From Polytrichum commune (taxonomy: Eukaryota > Streptophyta > Polytrichopsida > Polytrichales > Polytrichaceae): a stretch of 64,000 nt of DNA. The stretch spans positions 21,762,001 through 21,826,000 of the forward strand of contig OX485809.1 in assembly GCA_950295325.1 (NCBI GenBank). The letters are read 5' to 3'. Shown piece by piece: positions 16,415 to 26,801 of this stretch (within the stretch, counting starts at the first letter, position 1; every line of letters begins with the position of its first letter). Below the pieces are notes generated by a model that saw only the letters and a list, made by a program, of their open reading frames with translations, made no database searches and was not told the DNA's origin. The position numbers were made by a program, and so were the translations under genes.

Positions 16415-16423
16415 CAAATCAAC
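16415..16423. repeat. Target-site duplication, left (CAAATCAAC)
   Basis: This 9-bp sequence is repeated exactly at 26,793-26,801 immediately outside the other terminal inverted repeat. A 9-bp duplication is the hallmark of Mutator-superfamily insertion. Confidence 0.95.
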
Positions 16424-16917
16424 CCCTAACATTACGGAGCCCAAAGGTGTTTACTCCAGCTCTCACATCGAGGCGCGGCAGAGTGCGTCAGAAGAGTAGT
16501 AAAAATTGCAGCACTGCTGACCGTGCGCCTCATGCCTGAGGGCTTCCGGTCCCGCCCCGGCCCGGGCTGCCAGCGCCACCCTGTATCCCCACAGCGCCAC
16601 GCTGTCTGCCATGTCGCCTCGCTCCACGCTGTCTGCCACGTCGGGGATTCCAGATGTGCATGCCCGCCCGCCCCCCGAGGTTACGAGGATCTGCGCATCA
16701 GATGCGCATGCCCTGCATCATGCCATCCCAGCATGAGCACCATGGCCTTCACCCGCCATCCATCCATCGTGGGAACCTTAGCGCCCTCGGGGAGTGCGCT
16801 CTCCATACCTTCCTTTCAAACCTCCATTCACCCAGCCGTCACGATTGTGCGAAACCTTCTGATTCAGCAGACGCTCCAGAATTCTGGTGCTTTGGAGTGT
16901 GTTGTATGAAGCGATGA
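16424..16917 (+). repeat. MULE left terminal inverted repeat
   Basis: It begins CCCTAACATTACGGAGCCCA. The first ~393 bp match the reverse complement of the right end with four visible mismatches. Similarity then weakens but continues to about 16,914 (GTGTTGTATGAAG is shared). It is strikingly GC-rich (runs such as CCCGCCCCGGCCCGGGC) against AT-rich flanks. In MuDR-type elements the TIRs contain transposase-binding sites and promoters; that role is inferred here. Frames open through it on both ends are shadows of the repeat. Confidence 0.93.
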
Positions 16918-17381
16918 CATTGCAGCAATTCGGCGGAGATGCTATATGGGGAAGATCACCTCCTGGAGCGCTTCTTTTCATACATTCATTGGTGTTGTGC
17001 TTATTGTAACCTATGCATTTCGCTAGTAGTTTGAATGTATGCCGCAATGGGGTTTGTCGCAACTATTCATGCGAAGGCCGCACTGGTGTGGTGAAGGTTT
17101 TAGGCTAAAATGATGGTGGTCGGCGCTCAGTCCTCATATGGTGGTCCCAATCACCCTCACTGATCGCGCTTTCGATATTTTTGATGGGATCTGCATTTTT
17201 CCATCGCTCCTAACCGACTGTAACCTACTCATGTACCATTTGCTCCGTTTGAAGGCCTGAGTCCATTGTTTCCTTTCCAGTGATGGCACTCGAACAATGA
17301 TGTTCTCATGCTATGCGGGCAAGATCATCTCATAACGCCCATTCGTGCTTTCAGTGTGCTGCTTTGTTCAGTTTTTCAACG

Positions 17382-17531
17382 ATGGCGTTGACGTTGCACA
17401 TTCTTGACAATGGAAAGCATGCCGCGGAACAAACACATGGCCTGATGCAAGGCGTGCAACCCTCATATGAATCTACATACGAGGAGGTTCACAAGCAGGA
17501 GTTAGAACGACTCAGCAGTTCCGTGCAGTGA
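17382..17531 (+). CDS. Possible 5' exon of the MULE transposase
   Basis: A 49-codon frame from an ATG (17,382; in-frame ATG also at 17,313) lies between the left TIR and the body of the transposase. It encodes a hydrophilic peptide containing HILDNGKHAAEQ and YESTYEEVHKQELERL. It ends at a stop before the next open segment begins at 17,571. If real, it would join the transposase by splicing to an acceptor near 17,570 or 17,632. No clear donor decides this. Confidence 0.3.
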   Translation: MALTLHILDNGKHAAEQTHGLMQGVQPSYESTYEEVHKQELERLSSSVQ

Positions 17532-17785
17532 CCTGAAGCAGGAACTTTCATGCATACTGATCTAATGTAGACAAACCACATCCGGCTGAAAGGGACGGGG
17601 TCCGATCCGAGAACTCCTGCTTCAGTTTCGGTTGCTTACATACCCTGGGTGCGAGTCGAAGATTTTGTGAAAGGCGAGGAGGCTCGCACTGATGGTTCCT
17701 GCAAATTTGTGTGCCAAGGCACAACATCCAACAAATAGGGGGAACTGATGTTCCCCTGGTGGAATAGCTACTATGCCGTCAGCAG

Positions 17786-17915
17786 GTATCTTTGTAACAT
17801 GTCATTTGACCAGAATTGTGCATGTTGCAATGTTACAACATTCAAACAACTTTGTTTCTTGTTACACATTACTCTTACAAGTACAAATTTTGTTGACCCC
17901 ATCCCCGATGTGCAG
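17786..17915 (+). other. Transposase intron 1
   Basis: The intron has donor CAG/GTATCT and acceptor GATGTGCAG, 130 nt. Splicing rebuilds an Arg codon and joins NSYYAVSR to YHCQYG in the zinc-finger head. It contains three GTTACA/TGTAAC hexamers (17,793; 17,832; 17,861). Confidence 0.7.
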
Positions 17916-18654
17916 GTATCATTGCCAGTATGGACCAAACGACAATGCATCGCACATACCAGTTGTTACAAAGGATATGTACCACAAGAAACGGAAGCTT
18001 GATTCGAAAGGCAAATACGTTCCAAATGGAAAGGGTCACACAGGTCCACGCACATCTGCGAGGATGCGAGGATCAGGCCAACGAAGGGGGTGCCAATGTT
18101 GTTTTGTCGTGAAGCGATTGTACTTGGAGCATTCAGTGGCAGAAATAACATACCACCAGATGAAGCATGTGAATCTGAAAGGATTCTTCTGCCATGGTGC
18201 CACAAAAACTGGCCATAAGAGCAGATTCTCCAGCCACATATCGCAAGAAGTTCGGGAGTTCATCATGAGCCATTTGCGTTTGGGTTTGTTTATCCTACAA
18301 ATAATGGCAAAACACAGGAAACGCTTCTTGGAGGTATGTGAGAGAGGGGAGGAGCTCATCCGAGACCTATTCATATATGACCAAGACATTCGCAACGTCG
18401 CTGGTCGCCTTGCAATAGAGACCTACAAACGTGACAACAATGACGCAAAATCTGTACGCATGTGGGTGCAAGAACATCCATTCATCGTCTTCTACTACAA
18501 AGAGTCGGACGTACATGTGCGTGGAGCTATTACACGTGATAACATTCCATTCACAATAGGAATCCAGACATCTTGGCAACAAGATATGATGCTCAAGCAC
18601 GGGCATAAAAAGGCCGTGTCCATTGATGCCACGTTCGCAACCAATGAGAATAAG

Positions 18655-18802
18655 ATTTGTTTATACCGTATTTCCTAATTCAGCATGTTACAAAGCATGT
18701 GCACTAGGTGCTTTGCCGGAATGAATGTTACAAGACTGTTGTTTGTAATTTGCATGCTTTCCCCCATAGTCTAATGTTATTTTTTTGAATATATTGCTGC
18801 AG
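18655..18802 (+). other. Transposase intron 2, donor apparently mutated
   Basis: Family alignment requires DATFATNENK to be followed directly by FPLYTLMVF. The acceptor is TATTGCTGCAG at 18,802 in phase 0, so the intron must begin at 18,655. The sequence there is AAG/ATTTGT, where a normal donor would be AAG/GTTTGT. A single G-to-A change explains it. It contains two GTTACA hexamers (18,687; 18,727). Confidence 0.6.
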
Positions 18803-20142
18803 TTTCCATTGTACACCTTGATGGTCTTTGATGACTGGCTAAACGGAGTGCCCGTGGCGTACATTATCACCTCTAGTTCCAAGCAACCTGATCTTGAACC
18901 ATGGATGAGGGTGCTGGCCAAGAAAATGGCGTCTGTGCAAGAAGATTGGATGCCTAATGCATTCATTACAGACTGCGCGTAAGCAGAGATTGGAGGGCTG
19001 CAATGTGTATGGCCTGGAGTGAAAGTCTTTTTGTGCCTCTGGCATGTTCGTCGTGCCTGGTTGAAACAAGCAGTGGCCAAAATTAAGGACCATGCGGTAC
19101 GTGCGGGTGTGCTAAAGGGGTTGGGCCATATCATGTACGACACTAAGTGCCCTCAGGGAGATGAAATGGGGCCTTGGGCTATTCGCCAATTGAATGCTCT
19201 TAGGGATAGCTTCCCCATTGTGAGCAATTTTTGGGCTTACTTCGACAAACAATGGGCAGACAATATCCATATGTGGGTTGTGGGGCATCGTAACCTACCA
19301 TATGCTGGGCAGGATACAAATGCAGCAATTGAAAGTTACCACTCTAACCTTAAAGCCACCTTGCGTGCCTCAAAAGGCAGAGCCCACAGTCGTCGTTTAG
19401 ACTGGGTCATATACGAGTTGACAGAGGAGATTCTCTCTCATTATTGGTACCAAGCAATGAGGAAACAACATGGGTTTGTACCCAACTTGAAACAAGAGCA
19501 ATTCATTATCAATGCAGTGCTGAAGGCGAGAGAAATTCCCGACTCCTGTGTTACTCTCCCCATTGCGAATGACGGTCCAGCGTTGGTGACATCCAAGACC
19601 AATGCTGGTAAATTGTACACTGTATACAACCCAGACTGCGAGTGGGGCTGCTGCGATTGCTTGTGGGCAATGAAGGGGAACATATGTAAACACCAGATTA
19701 AAGTCCTCATGATGTTGCATCCTAGCATTGCAGAAGGAACAATTACACGTTACTGTGGATCCCTTGCAGGCATAAGGGAGGGAGGCCGTGGCAACATGCT
19801 GGATCATGTTGAGCATTTCCCACATGATACCGGACCACCCTGGTCTACCCCTACGCTCATGCGAGCACGAGGAAGCCAATGTCTCACACCATGTGGGGAG
19901 GACATGGAGAAACATGTTCGTAACCTTGCAGCAGAGTTCATGGAAGTTGCTACAGGGGACAGATTCTTGTTGAAGCACCTCCTCGCAGATTTCCACGTCG
20001 TGCGAGGCAAACAACAGACATTGTTGGCTCAAATAAAACATGGGGTGGTGGAGCCATCCCAGGAGGATGTTCATTTCCAGGCCAACGACGACGGCAGTAA
20101 CATGTCCCTCAAGCGTAGGAAGGACTTCTTGGAACGCTGTCG

Positions 20143-20398
20143 GTAGGTTATATTCTTGGTCAAACCTGTATTGGACACCGCGTATGTTACAAGCATGTCT
20201 GCATGTTACAACAATTCACACATGCGGTCCGAGCATGCGACGTTTGTCATTTAAAGGCTGCACCTTCATTTCCCTTGGACACTTCCACCCAAGCAACATT
20301 CATTCAGCAGTTTTCTTGGCGTGTTGCTTCGTTTCCCTCACCATGCCGCGTTTTCATGTGAACCGAGTTCAGGCGGCCGTCTGGAAGTGGCTTTGCAG
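20143..20398 (+). other. Transposase intron 3
   Basis: The donor is TGTCG/GTAGGT and the acceptor TGGCTTTGCAG, 256 nt. Splicing restores an Arg codon and leads into CPDAIGPVGDISSDEE. Two GTTACA hexamers occur at 20,186 and 20,205. Confidence 0.65.
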
Positions 20399-20795
20399 AT
20401 GCCCAGATGCCATAGGACCGGTTGGAGACATATCCAGCGATGAGGAATTCTTCACTCCTCCAACAAGTCCTTCCAATGGCGTCGGAGACCAAAACGTGGG
20501 GGGCATTTGTGCATCCCCTTCCAGCCTCATCACTCCACCAGGGGACGCACAACGGCTGCTGTCGCCACCGCAAACGCGTCGACTCCACCGCCGACATGCT
20601 GAGGTTGTGCGGCAGCTCACTACTCCACCTCCAGTTGTGAAACCCCGCCCACATGCTCTGCTGAAGGCATACCAACGCCCGGTTATGGTGTACAGGCCAA
20701 ACTGGGCACCGTAGTGTCACATTATAGGGTACACTCAGCGTGTTGCACACTTTTTTCTTTTGAATGAAAAATGGAGTTGACTGGGGGTGCTTTTG

Positions 20796-21114
20796 CATAT
20801 GTGAACATGCCATGTTTCATTTTATTGTTTGGTTTGTGGACAACAGTTCATGTAACAGTGCGTGTAACATGTTCATGTAATAGTGCGTGTAACAGTGCGT
20901 ATAACATTTTTTCAACATTCATGCATTCGGGTTTAGGCAACAATGGAGAGTGTCTTTTGGACTGACATATGTGAACATGCCATGTTTCATTTTATTGTTT
21001 GGTTTGTGGACAACAGTTCATGTAACATGTTCATGTAACAGTACGTGTAACATGTTCATGTAACAGTGCGTATAACATTTTTTCAACATTCATGCATTCG
21101 GGTTTAGGCAACAA
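20796..21114. repeat. Direct tandem repeat (170-bp period) between the convergent MULE genes
   Basis: Two near-identical copies (20,796-20,944 and 20,966-21,114) start CATATGTGAACATGCCATG and end TTCGGGTTTAGGCAACAAT. Each carries a cluster of TGTAAC hexamers in phrases such as TTCATGTAACAGTGCG. The repeats lie in the ~580-bp space between the 3' ends of the two genes. Confidence 0.9.
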
Positions 21115-21298
21115 TACATGACAGCACAATATGGCCATGTTACATCATGTTTCAAATGTTACACGTTTTACACATCAACTGTGGGTGCACATGGCTTGTA
21201 GTCACGAGAACACCCCTAACCAAAAATATATGTTGTTTTTCTTGAATATAGATAGGGGCAACCTGTGTAATTTAAGTTGCTGTAACATATATGTAACC

Positions 21299-24200
21299 CT
21301 AAAGCAAAGAGTCATCTGCAGTGCCCGTCGTAGTTGTGTTGAGAGGGTGTGGTACTTGGTGCTGTGTGGCACCCATGACGGCCTCGTGGGCGATTTGGGA
21401 AACTTGAACAAATGGGTCGATGTCCACTTGTATGGGTAACGCTCCAAATTCGGGTGTGCTAACAACGTCCAACTCTTCACCCAAGTTTCGAGCAGTGGCG
21501 GGTGCAGTGCTGCGCTCGGTTGTCGCGGAATCTTGCCAGTCAAAATCAAGTTGACTGGGCAAGTCTTGCAACGTCTTCTCCTGAGTCATGGGTATGTGGA
21601 AGACAGGTGTAACATGCACGTCTGCAGGTATGGATGGACAATTGTCTACGGGGTGTGGGTCCGGCGGGGGCTGCATGTCTTCCGAAGCATCTGCCACCTT
21701 GTGACTTTCAGCACCACCTGTATGTGTTGGCGGGTGCACTTCCAAATGCTTGCAACGCTCTCTCACAATATTTTTGGCAATATTGTGAAGCTCATACATG
21801 TACTCTGTACGCTCCAGCGAGGGCACCATGACATCTGCAAGGGGACATGTTACACAGACGGGCATGTTACAAAGAAGTCATTGGGAATGGATGTTGAAAT
21901 TGGAAGCTCAGGTTGCAAAAAGAGGTGAGGAAAACTACCTGGGTTGGCAAGGACATAGCCAATGTCCAAGTCCTCCCGATGTTGAAGCCAACTGTCGTAA
22001 CATGCAAGGGGGGGGGCAAAGAGGTTGCGGGCTGATCACGAATCACCCAGGCATTGAGCCAGGAGGGCTTGTCGTGAAAGGCCATGTCCTGGACTGCCCT
22101 GAACTGGGTGGATTGGCACCATACATGCAATTCTGCCCACCAACCAGGGGTTGGATTCTCCAAATCCATCCAAGCTGCATCCACCTCTGCAAGCCACCGC
22201 TGTTTCGATTCCACTGGCCTTGCCCCCGCGAACACAAGGAAGCCTTCTTCCTTCAAGTACGTGGTCGCCAAATGCCACGCACGCCAACCATCTCCTTCGT
22301 CTTCTTCTGCCAGCTTTAGCCATCTTGTAACATTGCCGACGGATCCGCCACTAAAAGGGTGCGATATGAGGGGGGGGGGATAGGGTGTGATACTTAAGGA
22401 AACAACGAAGAAGAAGGACAGACCATGGGACATGGTAAACCCTTTCAACATGAGATTGTTGCAAGAGCTGAGAATGCACATGTAAACCCTCTACAACTGA
22501 ATGATACAAAGGGTATGCGGGTTTAAAGCTGGTGCAAAGGGGATTAGCCACAAATGATGGATAGAAAGGGTGCCAACCCCATGTTGCTTCAAGCAAACGT
22601 GGGTAATGCTCGTCATCCCACCGAGTCATGGCCGTTGCGATGGCTGCACTAACCTTTGCTTGACGGTCATCGTCCCACTGCTTGCGCTGCTTCATCAGGT
22701 TACGCATGACAAATATGTGTTCGATGTAGCTCAATAGAGCAGCAATCTCATTCGCAATTCCGGATTCGTCCCCTACCTTGGTCATTGTGGCCACGACAGT
22801 CTCTGTGATTGCTGGTCCTACGTCTGGTCTAGCCTGCACCCGCATCCACTCCACATGTTACAACGTCTAAACCTTACATGAACACATGTTACTAAGCTTG
22901 CACAGAAGGCGGACTAGGGGGGCATGCTGACTGCAATCCACAATGACCAGACTGTCGCATGTTACAACAGTGATTGCAAAACCTGAACGAGTAAATAAAA
23001 GCTCAGGTGAATTGTGAAATGCACATAGGTTGTACCTGATGCGAAGGTGAGTAGAATCTGCCATAGGCAGCAAACAACCGGTCCATGAATGATGGGTCCT
23101 TCTTCCAATTGTCAACCTCTTCCTGGAAAGCAGGGAACTCGCCGGACTCCACATCAAATTTTAACAAACCACACACCAACAAGTGGAACAGACCGGGGGG
23201 TTGTATTGGAGGCCTTAGACTCGGTTTGGGGATGTCCATCCTCACAGACGCACGTGCTGCACTTGCCGCCTTGATGTAAAAGGCTTGCCGCTCCTTTCGT
23301 AACGTTGCAGCAATATCATGCTCACCTGTTGAGTTCTCCTTCTCCGGGACAGGCGTCTGCGATGGCATAGGGATTGCATGTGGCACATGCGGAACGGGAG
23401 TAGGAGGAGCCAGAATCGCAACCCTCTCTGGCGATGGGTTGCGAGTCTGGATGGGCGTTACGAGAATGGGATGGGGAGGCGGGCCAGACGAAGGACGCGA
23501 CGGTCGTGGTGGGTTTCGTGGCGGGTGCGCTCTCTGCCGTTCACCACCAGCACTTCGGCGGGGAGGGGTTGGGTTGGGTTTCCTTTGCGAAGGTCTGAAC
23601 TGCCGGGGAGAGTGGAAAACGCCATGTCCATCTTCCATCTCTGAATGAGGACGCTTCTTCGGACGGCCTTCTTCCATCTCCGCATGACGACGCTTCCTGT
23701 TGTGAGGATGGGACGCTTCATAGTCATCGTTGCCGTCATCTTCGAGGTCCACAAAATTCGGTGCCGCGGTTGGTGCAGTACGTGGCTTGGGTGTGCGTTC
23801 GGGTCTCGGTTGCCATTGCGCGCTACCTCCTGCTGTGGATGGGCAAGCTGCCAATCTCTCAAGTGAGGGCTCCATGAACATTCGCACTTGCACTCTTGCT
23901 CCAGCGGGCGGGAAAGTGGGCTCCCTCAGCTCCGGGTTCAGCTCCAACCAAATAGAATTGTCCTGCAAATTGTCCCATACGGAGCCGTCTCCTCGTTGCA
24001 ACGCCAGTTTCAAGTCCTTACCTTGTTTGGTTGTCTTCAAATTTGGGTAGACTGGAAGCTCCCATTTTGCGCTAGTGGAATCCACAGGTCCACACGGGCA
24101 ACCCACCACCCGGTGATCTGTCAAGCGCAATTTGCTTGGAAAATATGATTTGCAATACAGGCACAACCAGTCATCCCGCGCCTTCTGGACATCGCGAGAT

Positions 24201-24502
24201 CGATTACGAGTACATTCCAATTTCAACTCGATGTACACCCGCCTCCTCACACGCTGCTCCACCCATCCAGCAAAATCCCTGTTCACGTAGTATACAACCT
24301 CGTCTCCTTCGTTGCATGGCCTGTGTGCACCAGAATCCATATTCTGCAAGCGACAATGCAAGTCAATACCAAGGAATAATGCCGTTTCAGGCGGGAGCAT
24401 GAAGGAGGGGGGGTGGAAATTTGAAGGTCGGGGTGCATGCAGAAATGCGCGTGGTAGATGGTCCTTGTATCCCTCCATAGGAGGTAACGCACCAATGGCC
24501 AT
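21299..24502 (-). CDS. MULE accessory protein, about 910 aa, C2HC finger and NLS; unrecognised
   Basis: I do not recognise the family. Model: exon 1 24,502-23,036 (489 codons from an ATG in GTGGCC/ATGG context), exon 2 22,833-22,508, exon 3 22,350-21,939 and exon 4 21,834-21,299. The introns are GT-AG and fit in phase, except that one base is out of register within exon 3 near a G9 run (22,008-22,016). Exon 1 has a C2HC-type finger (C114, C117, H130, C135), a basic bipartite NLS-like stretch at 269-285 with an imperfect duplicate (RRHAEMEEG, KRPHSEMEDG), then a long Pro/Arg-rich disordered region to about 380. Exon 3 is Trp-rich (GWWAELHVWCQ) and may form a separate fold. Position and orientation parallel mudrB and VANDAL accessory genes, but no similarity to them is claimed. 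A role in DNA binding or counter-silencing is inference. Confidence 0.65.
21835..21938 (-). other. Accessory gene intron 3
   Basis: On the minus strand the donor is CCCAG/GTAGTT and the acceptor CCCTTGCAG, 104 nt. The exon 4 frame requires one carried base, which fits the register GYVLANP-D-VMVPSLER rather than the register used before the G9 run. GTTACA hexamers lie at 21,849 and 21,865. Confidence 0.55.
22351..22507 (-). other. Accessory gene intron 2
   Basis: On the minus strand this is a 157-nt intron with a GTATCA donor after CCTTT, a long pyrimidine tract and a CCCTTTTAG acceptor. It moves the frame from the exon 2 to the exon 3 register, joining KPAYP to GGSVGNVTRW. It contains the C10 run (22,370-22,379). 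If unspliced, the exon 2 frame would stop at 22,351. It is the one placed intron in which I find no GTTACA hexamer. Confidence 0.5.
22834..23035 (-). other. Accessory gene intron 1
   Basis: On the minus strand the donor is CATCAG/GTACAA and the acceptor CGGGTGCAG, 202 nt, phase 0, joining SPSHQ to ARPDVGPA. GTTACA hexamers lie at about 22,857 and 22,957. Confidence 0.6.
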
Positions 24503-24649
24503 GGCCACCAAGTCCAACAGGATCCTAAACCCAAACGTGTAGCACCGTAACAACTGTGTCCCATAAACTGAAATTCCTGGACAAACCCCGGCCGACCCTG
24601 AAACATAGACAACGCCTAAGAATACACCTGAATGCCAGAGACGCTATCA

Positions 24650-25780
24650 CACTGTAAAAACCCTAAACCCAAAAATGTAAACAACCACCAAGATTGGCCG
24701 TGCCCTGGAATGTTCTAAACCGCGACCTCCTAAACCCCAAACCCTTAATCTATAGCGAAAAGTTGCTGTCCTAGACCAACCATGCGACGAAAACATATAC
24801 AACCCCTAAATCTGAATGCCCTAAACGCGGGCAGTGCCAAACAAGACTTTCAAATGCACTCGCACACAGGTGAATGCCCAAAAAATGGCCGCTGACAAAC
24901 AAGAAGATTCACCAAGAAAAGCAGCAGGAAACGGGCGTCGCTGGGAAGGTCGCAAAGCGCGGCCACATGAAGACCGCAGATACCCAAGACCGCAAACCAC
25001 AACAGATACAACGCCTAACCATGAGCGTGAATGCCCGAAAGGCGGCCAATCACAAACAAGAAGTCACAACCCAAAAGCAGTAAGGACAGCCGTGACCACG
25101 AAAGTTGGAAATGCCGTCCACGAAAACCACCCTCCACCCTAAATATTGTATACAGAATACTACACTGCTCTCACAAAGGAAGCGACCAAAACAGGGACAA
25201 GCCAGAAGCATAGACGTGTCTGGTACAAACGATGCCACACACAGACCAGCAAGAACTGTGACATGCAATGTTGCAACCGACGTCCAGAAAACCACCCTCC
25301 ACCCTACACAATCTATACCGCAAAAACTGCAGTGCCCACACACCGCAACGCACCTAAACAGAGGAAACGCCTAAGCATACATGTGAATGGCACAAACAAG
25401 AAACGGAAGTAAGAAGTAAGCAATGTTCCGAATCGCATCCCTGAAGCCAGCCTAAACCCTAAAGACTACATACACGAAGCAACCCACCAAAACATATACA
25501 TTACGGAGCTTAAATCTGTTTCCAGAAACGCTGCCACACACAAACAACAAAGGGAAGAAAAAAATGCACCAACAACGCCCATGGCCAGCATTATTACAAA
25601 GCACGCCCCGAAAACCTCCCTGAACCGTTGATATACTATTCAGAAATGTGCACTGCCTACATGAAGGAAGGGACCATAACACAAAGAATGCCCAAGCATG
25701 CATCTAAATCGCATAAGCGGTGCTCAAACACAAACCAGACAGAAGAAACAAATGCAGCAAAAAAACCCTAAAGGATGACA
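24650..25780. repeat. Degenerate subterminal repeats of the MULE, non-coding
   Basis: Loose repetition of ACAAACAAGAAG-type strings and of CGAAAACCACCCTCCACCCT (25,118; 25,286; weaker at 25,608), each followed by TATACNNAA-like sequence. C- and A-rich on the plus strand. Frames here are shadows. This lies upstream of the accessory gene, so it may be its promoter/leader region. Confidence 0.5.
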
Positions 25781-26311
25781 GGTTACAACACTGACCGCTT
25801 CTTGGATGGAGTACGCCCCTTGTAACAAACGTCTGTGCCGGATCTCCTCATGCGCCGCTCAACGATCTCTCAGAAAATGGCAGATCCAGTTTCTCCTCAT
25901 CACAATCAACACATAAACCTGAACCATGACGAATACCTCAGCCCATATTATTGGTCAATCACAATTTAAGGAGTGCAATTAAGTCATATGTAACATGATT
26001 GCCATGATCGAAAACCTCATCATCCAATTACATTCATTGCATTACAAACTTGATTACGAGATCTTGCACGTCACTCTTCACCACATCATTGTCCTAACCT
26101 TGTTGCTACATCATCACTTCAAAGAAGCCACTCCAGTGCGCCACAAACCCGGACTATTTCACAAATGAGTAGGTTACAATAAATTAGAAGTGATAATTGA
26201 TTGGGGGTTTGAAAAGAAATATGAGAAGTGATGTAACTCACCTTCATTGTACCAACCGTCCTGGAAAAGGACCACTCCAAAGCAGCGATCTCGGCCGTAA
26301 ACCATTCACTC
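25781..26311. other. MULE right subterminal region, no gene
   Basis: Non-coding sequence between the degenerate repeats and the right TIR. It contains GTTACA/TGTAAC hexamers at about 25,784, 25,828, 25,989 and 26,172. It likely includes upstream regulatory DNA of the minus-strand accessory gene. Confidence 0.5.
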
Positions 26312-26792
26312 TGTCACTTCATACAACACACTCCATAGCACCAGCAATCAGGAGTGTCCAGGTTACAAAGAATCGTCATGGGTGCTTGAATGAGGGTTTT
26401 AAGGAAGGTATGGAGAGCGCACTCCCCGAGGGCGCTAAGGTTGCCACGATGGATGGATGGCGGGTGAAGGCCATGGTGCTCATGCTGGGATGGCATGATG
26501 CAGGGCATGCGCATCTGATGCGCAAATCCTCGTAACCTCGGGGGGCGGGCGGGCATGCACATCTGGAATCCCCGACGTGGCAGACAGCGTGGAGCGAGGC
26601 GACATGGCAGACAGCGTGGCGCTGTGGGGATACAGGGTGGCGCTGGCAGCCCGGGCCGGGGCGGGACCGGAAGCCCTCAGGCATGAGGCGCACGGTCAGC
26701 AGTGCTGCAATTTTTACTACTCTTCTGACGCACTCTACCGCGCCTCGATGCGAGAGCTGGAGTAAACACCTTTGGGCTCCGTAATGTTAGGG
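26312..26792 (-). repeat. MULE right terminal inverted repeat
   Basis: Reverse complement of the left TIR, with its outer end at CCGTAATGTTAGGG. Four visible differences across the outer ~390 bp, then a diverged inner part to about 26,312. GC-rich, followed directly by the 9-bp duplication. Confidence 0.93.
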
Positions 26793-26801
26793 CAAATCAA
26801 C
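26793..26801. repeat. Target-site duplication, right (CAAATCAAC)
   Basis: Exact repeat of 16,415-16,423. Confidence 0.95.

Follow-up and report, generated by a model that had tools for sequence, protein, structure and literature searches.

The Polytrichum commune element at positions 16424-26792 (10.4 kb) of the window, that is, of the whole 64,000-nucleotide stretch analyzed (GenBank assembly GCA_950295325.1, contig OX485809.1, positions 21,762,001 to 21,826,000 of the forward strand), is a Mutator-like element (MULE), as indicated by its terminal inverted repeats (TIRs), its 9-bp target-site duplication (TSD) and the transposase domain of a sibling copy. Its genes were mapped by protein conservation across siblings and comprise a transposase gene (+, several stretches within 17577-20137), a gene B and a convergent accessory gene (-, several stretches within 24523-21302). 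We suggest, at a probability of roughly 0.6, that the MULE family of this element has a zinc-finger system of self-recognition and anti-silencing, an analogue of the VANDAL/VANC system. A short word is kept up in this family, related lineages possess alternatives of their own, and a zinc finger is present in the accessory protein and diverges between lineages. The finger may read the word, and its binding would counteract silencing.

In the mechanism that we propose, the accessory zinc-finger protein would recognize cATGTTACR, which the family keeps dense in its introns, in its spacers and ahead of gene B. The protein would gather on its own kind, because few other places hold many close copies, and would turn family copies on. 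Most likely it would do so as VANC does, through the removal of silent chromatin, and perhaps by activating transcription directly. In related MULE lineages, the word and the zinc finger would both have changed.

Enrichment of the word in the element

The hexamer GTTACA (TGTAAC on the other strand) was found 33 times in the element, whose second-order Markov model predicts 6.1 copies; the density in the flanks predicts 5.2. The 53.65 kb of flanks held 27 copies, 12 of them in the first 16.4 kb. A first-pass annotation, made by eye, had reported about 32 copies against four to five expected, and about nine in the preceding 16 kb; its count and the clustering held, while the other two figures were too low. 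GTTACA ranked first among 1,961 hexamer kinds in the element (p 2.5e-14) and ATGTTACA first among 7,809 8-mer kinds (19 copies versus 0.75 expected, p 2e-20). In six flank chunks of element length (including two overlapping pairs, with words of period 1-3 excluded) the lowest p values were 2e-7 for hexamers and 2e-10 for 8-mers.

After removal of the tandem duplication (20796-21115) and the 3' TIR, 26 copies of GTTACA remained. The Markov expectation, these 26 copies and the flank-chunk control ruled out the 170-bp duplication or base composition as the cause, which the first-pass annotation had named as an outcome that would refute its idea. It is hardly plausible that local duplication, the growth of microsatellites or common descent produced the enrichment as a side effect: this copy carries the duplication, siblings such as L003 contain short-period arrays and close siblings share sites by descent, but the copies outside the array persist, introns with a median identity of 0.54 still keep the word, and the word is retained where the sequence between its repeats has changed (in the accessory introns, and also in a list of pairs that was itself selected by the word). 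The TGTAA poly(A) signal of algae was considered as the identity of the word and rejected on two grounds: both strands carry the word, and the flanks show no excess of it.

The non-coding share amounted to 30 of the 33 copies, located in the transposase introns, the spacer upstream of gene B, the inter-gene spacer, the gaps of the accessory gene and the subterminal parts. The other three lie in protein-conserved coding intervals and start at 17965, 21608 and 22326 (the two on the minus strand are also given as 21613 and 22331), so that the earlier statement that all copies but the one at 17,965 were outside coding sequence was not upheld. Telomere-like CCCTAAA/CTAAACCC was a second over-represented motif, observed at 24660-24800 of the window and in the siblings L002, L005, L006 and L009, with 13 CCCTAAAC in L002.

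Conservation of the word in the window family

Twelve siblings with 79-96% transposase identity were fetched from the 49 places listed at ≥79%, which include the window and in which one split locus was counted once. GTTACA was enriched in all 12, at 20-29 per 10 kb, and was sparsest in L012, a 10-kb slice of a copy with TIR matches about 36 kb apart. Over the 13 elements it occurred 285 times in non-coding and 49 times in coding DNA, or 4.5 versus 0.73 per kb (about 6-fold). The expectation of the first-pass annotation that siblings would share the motif in their non-coding DNA was thus confirmed, and none of the siblings fetched lacked it. Among all permutations of the hexamer GTTACA was the densest in non-coding DNA; the runner-up reached 1.84 per kb. 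CATGTTAC occurred at 0.46 per kb even inside the coding DNA of the 13 elements, and only once in the 53.65 kb of flanks.

Alignment of 550 GTTAC sites gave the family logo cATGTTACR, with C51 A69 T57 before GTTAC and A61/G23 A46 after it (percent), which resembles the logo of a binding site. Thirteen of the 15 single-base changes within the core GTTAC of CATGTTACA occurred at ≤0.054 per kb, versus 0.85 for the word itself.

The two transposase introns and the gene-B spacer, whose median pairwise identities were 0.70, 0.54 and 0.52, together held 74 GTTACA in 6,079 bp (12.2 per kb). In the second transposase intron, three of the 12 siblings had GTTAC without GTTACA. The accessory introns of 10 siblings contained 3-6 GTTAC each, and the spacers between them had diverged. 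A more distant copy, L025 (71% transposase identity), which was included in the tree but lies outside the 13-element counts, held 12 CATGTTAC. The decayed copy L020 held six. In L019, likewise decayed, an apparent extra word AGTGTTAA was dropped, since the locus is a window-family copy and most copies of this extra word fall into two local clusters.

Other words in distant lineages

Twelve distant loci with 39-47% transposase identity were analyzed (L013-L018, L021-L024, L030 and L031), and the window-family word CATGTTAC occurred in them only 0-2 times. They were instead rich in other words, namely CAGTGTCAC, CAGTGTTAC, GTTCTGCA, CAGGACR and, in a single locus, GTMMTTCA, and these groups matched the transposase clades. 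In the CAGTGTCAC group, AGTGTCAC was counted 15 times in L013, nine in L014 and 18 in L021 (flanks, 4). The CAGTGTTAC group was represented by AGTGTTAC, with six copies in L015 and four each in L022 and L031 (flanks, 1); L014 and L021 also held four each. GTTCTGCA was found 26 times in L017 and 27 times in L024 (flanks, 2). CAGGACR was found 12 times in L016, 23 in L018 and 21 in L023 (flanks, 0), and reached five copies in one window-family locus. The top words of L023, GGGCCCCA among them, were taken to belong to another repeat and disregarded; the count given for this locus is that of CAGGACR.

Once the pattern of words had been seen, two further loci, L030 and L031, were added to test it. 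L030 displayed its own word as well as its own finger: GTMMTTCA occurred 29 times (flanks, 6; other loci, 0-4), and the best fixed 8-mer, GTCCTTCA, nine times versus 0.7 expected. L031 repeated the CAGTGTTAC type weakly.

A 27-row tree built from the main transposase exon supported the window family with L019 (0.989), the CAGTGTCAC (0.977), CAGTGTTAC (1.0), GTTCTGCA (0.985) and CAGGACR (1.0) groups, and the union of GTTCTGCA with L030 (1.0). A support of 0.14 for the window family on the re-rooted tree was an artefact of re-rooting; the value of 0.989 is that of the unrooted tree. Outside longer open reading frames (ORFs), AGTGTCAC and GTTCTGCA were still frequent (4-14 per locus), and CCAGGACG was found only three times each in L018 and L023.

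The agreement of words with the transposase tree also bears on the possibility that the transposase binds the word during transposition and that the accessory gene serves some other purpose. We regard this as improbable. The words do follow the transposase tree, and the transposase exon of distant lineages contains them as well. However, MULE transposases are expected to bind TIRs, and both 401-bp TIR arms contain 0 GTTACA and one GTTAC each, while the densest sites are internal, in introns and the inter-gene spacer. A MULE transposase, MURA, does cause hypomethylation of TIRs (PMC10398659), which lends this explanation some support.

Host factors offer a further explanation, in which the word is the site of such a factor that the family exploits or attracts, be it for its expression, its chromatin state or its targeting. 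It is common for transposons to borrow sites from the host, and several copies hold telomere-like CCCTAAA words too. This is nevertheless very unlikely, as several lineages with different words would need a different host factor each time, and the elements carry a diversifying zinc-finger gene of their own.

The accessory protein and its zinc finger

The accessory gene could be read in five motif groups and encodes a C2H2-like zinc finger that is nearly constant within a group and different between groups. The finger was FPSKLRLTDH in 11 of the 12 window-family copies read, FSNKMMLNRH in both copies of the CAGTGTCAC group, MVDKSELAWH in both of the CAGGACR group, GKDKNTISHH in the GTTCTGCA group (n=1) and HKDKNMTSYH with GTMMTTCA (n=1). 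The lysine and the metal ligands were constant among fingers, and the presumed contact positions, assigned by C2H2 helix numbering, differed in the four other motif groups. Identity of the finger region between lineages was 20-23%, versus 39-47% for the transposases.

The pattern C-x2-C-x12/13-H-x4/5-C with a hydrophobic core was present in 12 window-family copies (the window copy and L001-L011) and in six distant reads (L018, L021, L026, L027, L028 and L030). It was broken in the decayed L019 and L020; in L012, L014-L016, L022, L024 and L031 it was either not found or outside the part covered. The distant accessory genes run opposite to the transposase gene, an arrangement also seen in the window, and have a finger near the N-terminus in common. 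Their similarity to the middle exons or finger of the window family was remote (E 1e-4 to 0.06, hmmsearch without filters), and three of 16 hhalign comparisons exceeded 50% probability (88, 72 and 58%).

A finger profile built from nine regions (A1) matched 45 PDB sequences at E≤1, nearly all of them zinc-finger proteins and including DNA-binding C2H2 fingers. The best match was PRDM9 (7.7e-11 summed over repeats, with single repeats at about 1), followed by the ZBTB17 fingers (2lvr, 4e-4). A C48/Ulp1-like ORF was located on the accessory strand in L017 and L030, above the Pfam cut-off, and in L024, below it; no C48 match was found in Pfam for the window family.

On these grounds we tentatively envisage, at somewhat less than even odds, a MULE radiation within one plant that follows a finger-and-word code: each lineage would have its own single C2H2-like finger and, spread through the element, many copies of a matching word, and changes of word would go with changes at contact positions, as in GTTCTGCA with DKNTISHH and GTMMTTCA with DKNMTSYH. 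Such an anti-silencing system would be unrelated to VANC by protein family, and either convergent or far older.

Distribution in the genome

CATGTTACA was counted 7,224 times in the 408 Mb of the genome, which is 0.018 per kb versus 0.85 per kb in the 13 elements (about 48-fold). The same word read backwards occurred 5,605 times; therefore, most genomic copies of CATGTTACA represent background. Pairs of CATGTTAC within 30 bp were found 103 times (control, 20). Among the 100 pairs listed, 48 were located ≤12 kb from a transposase or accessory match of the window family (0.49% of the genome), and 0 were near distant transposases. For GTTCTGCA there were 72 pairs (control, 1), 35 of them near distant transposases and 0 near the window family.

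The search for AGTGTCAC pairs was set aside as a specificity test, as it was swamped by a single dispersed short repeat (767 pairs; control, 11). This repeat, which resembles AGTGTCACATGCRTAATAGTGTCAC, accounted for most of the pairs listed (100 of 767, all on C1). It carries the word of the L013/L021 lineage, is not obviously a MULE and is perhaps a hitch-hiker on the L013/L021 system. Five CATGTTACA were observed in 0.9 kb at C1:3617565-3618479, away from the listed family loci; this maybe is a non-autonomous or unrelated element sharing the word. The C5 DNA methylase family gave at least 123 genome matches (for example C6:31140883, C2:22814200 and C6:16196865), several of them in ORFs of 1,386 aa, and these matches look like a multi-copy mobile element encoding a cytosine-methyltransferase-like domain. 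Three loci with a LEAFY domain were also found, as expected of a streptophyte and probably of a land plant.

Evidence that weighs against the proposed reading of the word by the finger

Several results weigh against the proposed reading. Concerning the finger, the window's own sequence had no Pfam match at E up to 1, and Pfam matches for the fingers of relatives were sub-threshold. Structure prediction from the single sequence was uninformative (predicted local distance difference test score 33.7). One finger usually contacts about 3 bp, and 8-9 bp would need other parts of the protein or dimers. The transposase diverges along the same tree, so that co-variation does not single out the finger; for this reason, the reader of the word may instead be the transposase.

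Concerning the word, two of the core changes were not rare (CATGTAACA, 0.115 per kb; CATGTTTCA, 0.146 per kb), and the decayed L019 held only two CATGTTAC. The CAGTGTCAC and CAGTGTTAC groups overlap, as L015, L022 and L031 also hold AGTGTCAC (5, 4 and 3 copies). In these three loci the counts of their own word were only 4-6, and the accessory gene was not found. GTMMTTCA has two open positions and was defined after inspection from one locus, L030. The word was denser in the main transposase exon than elsewhere in seven of the eight distant loci counted, L030 being the exception. In the genome, 52 of the 100 CATGTTAC pairs listed and 37 of the 72 GTTCTGCA pairs were near none of the loci used; some of these 37 repeat the structure of L017-type copies.

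Comparison with known systems

That a protein of the transposon itself can counteract silencing in a sequence-specific manner is well established for the VANDALs of Arabidopsis, and Spm TnpA and MURA are looser cases (PMC10398659). The window family resembles VANDAL/VANC in being a MULE with an accessory gene, in the enrichment of a short word in the family's own non-coding DNA (introns and intergenic regions) with tandem arrays, in the use of different words by related families, and in an accessory protein more divergent than the transposase (PMC5735166, PMC10398659). VANC, however, carries DUF1985 and DUF287, neither of which was matched in Pfam by the window element or its relatives at E up to 1; a PF09331 search of the genome gave no match, and its control search likewise matched nowhere. 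VANDALs also have degenerate TIRs, in contrast to the 401-bp TIRs here. The main texts of both articles do not contain the term "zinc", whereas the finger here is C2H2-like. In the distant lineages the word also lies in exons, unlike in the VANC targets described there. Because DUF1985 was not found and the TIRs are long, the system was not filed as VANC, and it appears to be an analogue of VANDAL/VANC rather than a member. The first-pass annotation had proposed a VANDAL/VANC-like self-recognition with a different motif; this is partly supported, by the family word in non-coding DNA and by the accessory gene, and the idea is strengthened by the other words and lineage-specific fingers of related lineages.

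It could also be that the word is an enhancer or promoter element, and that the accessory protein simply activates transcription with the silent marks staying in place. Copies are indeed found within introns and, in the window as well as in siblings, upstream of the TATA-like words that precede gene B. We consider this unlikely, as copies are spread over much of the element, beyond the needs of a promoter, and VANC21, the closest precedent, hypomethylates some copies without detectable transcriptional activation (PMC5735166). An anti-silencing role of the finger is the reading that we prefer.

KIU/Kaonashi-type VANDALs contain an Ulp1 domain, the capture of which was dated to the monocot-eudicot separation (PMC13317346). 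The C48/Ulp1-like ORFs of L017 (GTTCTGCA) and L030 (GTMMTTCA) are similar in this respect; the window family, without a C48 match, differs. MULEs with an extra ORF for a zinc-finger or DNA-binding protein are known, such as Spectre (PMC6446971), whose TIRs are 74 bp and for which the portion of that article considered mentions neither a repeated self-word nor a set of lineages with different words. MURA, a MULE-encoded protein causing hypomethylation of its own kind, acts on the TIRs of MuDR through the transposase (PMC10398659), and the TIRs of the element studied here lack its word. TET/JBP enzymes have been described in DNA transposons of fungi (PMC12730594), and unpublished work on the co-evolution of VANC structure and target DNA was mentioned (PMC12859917). 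A search of the open-access literature found no description of a group of MULE lineages that combine zinc-finger accessory proteins with lineage-specific words.

Sites of Spm are subterminal in a CACTA element, while those of the window MULE are mostly internal: the TIRs hold 0 GTTACA and the densest cluster (20851-21297) is in the middle. The likeness to TnpA of maize Spm/En lies in a transposon-encoded protein tied to demethylation (PMC10398659) and in repeated short sites.

Structure and state of the window copy

The positions of the features are listed in Table 1. The arms of the long TIRs are 98% complementary, and CAAATCAAC is present on both sides as the TSD. The transposase domain PF10551 was detected in sibling L001 (33.4 bits; cut-off 27.6), and in the window copy both an RNaseH-like and a SWIM match were sub-threshold. 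The window transposase frame comprises 387 aa, and full-length relatives mostly 400-500. The window copy itself is probably inactive, because of the in-frame TAA at 18980 and a frame change of the accessory gene near a G run at about 22370. Copies with open frames at both positions were seen elsewhere in the genome.

The gene B protein had no Pfam match. TATA-like words were observed at 20240-20290 and at the same place in siblings, shortly downstream of motif copies. This location suggests that gene B has its own promoter.

Table 1. Features of the window element and of C48/Ulp1-like ORFs in related loci
Feature	Position	Strand	Remarks
Left TSD	16415-16423	.	9-mer CAAATCAAC; identical 9-mer at 26793-26801
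Left TIR	16424-16824	+	401 nt; arms 98% complementary; 0 GTTACA, 1 GTTAC; relatives elsewhere in genome
Transposase gene, conserved coding stretch 1	17577-17735	+	11/12 siblings, 63-85% aa identity
Transposase gap containing intron	17736-17892	+	3 GTTACA; 1-3 GTTACA in each of 11 siblings extracted
Transposase gene, conserved coding stretch 2	17893-18666	+	12/12 siblings
Transposase intron	18667-18796	+	2 GTTACA; median identity 0.54; siblings: GTTAC 12/12, GTTACA 9/12
Main transposase exon	18797-20137	+	In-frame TAA at 18980 here; 12 siblings, 79-96% aa identity
Spacer upstream of gene B	20138-20329	+	2 GTTACA; at least 1 GTTACA in 12/12 siblings; TATA-like words (by eye), also in siblings
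Gene B, small conserved ORF	20343-20714	+	12/12 siblings, 48-95% aa identity over enclosing ORF
170-bp tandem duplication	20796-21115	+	TGTAACA repeated; 7 GTTACA
Densest motif cluster	20851-21297	.	Between two convergent genes
Accessory gene, last conserved coding stretch	21302-21844	-	11/12 siblings, 39-92% aa identity
Accessory gene, middle coding stretch	22011-22845	-	Single frame in 8/11 matching siblings; remote match to distant-lineage accessories
Accessory-gene intron	22846-23026	-	CATGTTAC at 22854 and 22885, 31 bp apart; 3-6 GTTAC in each of 10 siblings extracted
Accessory gene, first conserved exon	23027-24523	-	At least 85 genome matches; 11/12 siblings
Zinc finger C-x2-C-x12-H-x4-C of accessory protein	24092-24169	-	
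Right TIR	26392-26792	-	401-bp arm; 0 GTTACA, 1 GTTAC
Right TSD	26793-26801	.	CAAATCAAC; abuts right end of element
C48/Ulp1-like peptidase ORF	L017:6152-6832; L024:6173-6853; L030:3942-4694	-	Downstream of accessory gene

Implications

If the system works like VANDAL, self-recognition exists with another kind of reader protein, and the joint change of reader and target can be followed across several lineages of a single genome. With five motif-finger pairs, the co-evolution of a reader with its many targets would then become directly testable. The finger-and-word code, if true, would be a natural record of DNA-binding specificity moving along with many target sites. Short readers able to locate an entire transposon family through the density of a motif could serve local epigenome editing.

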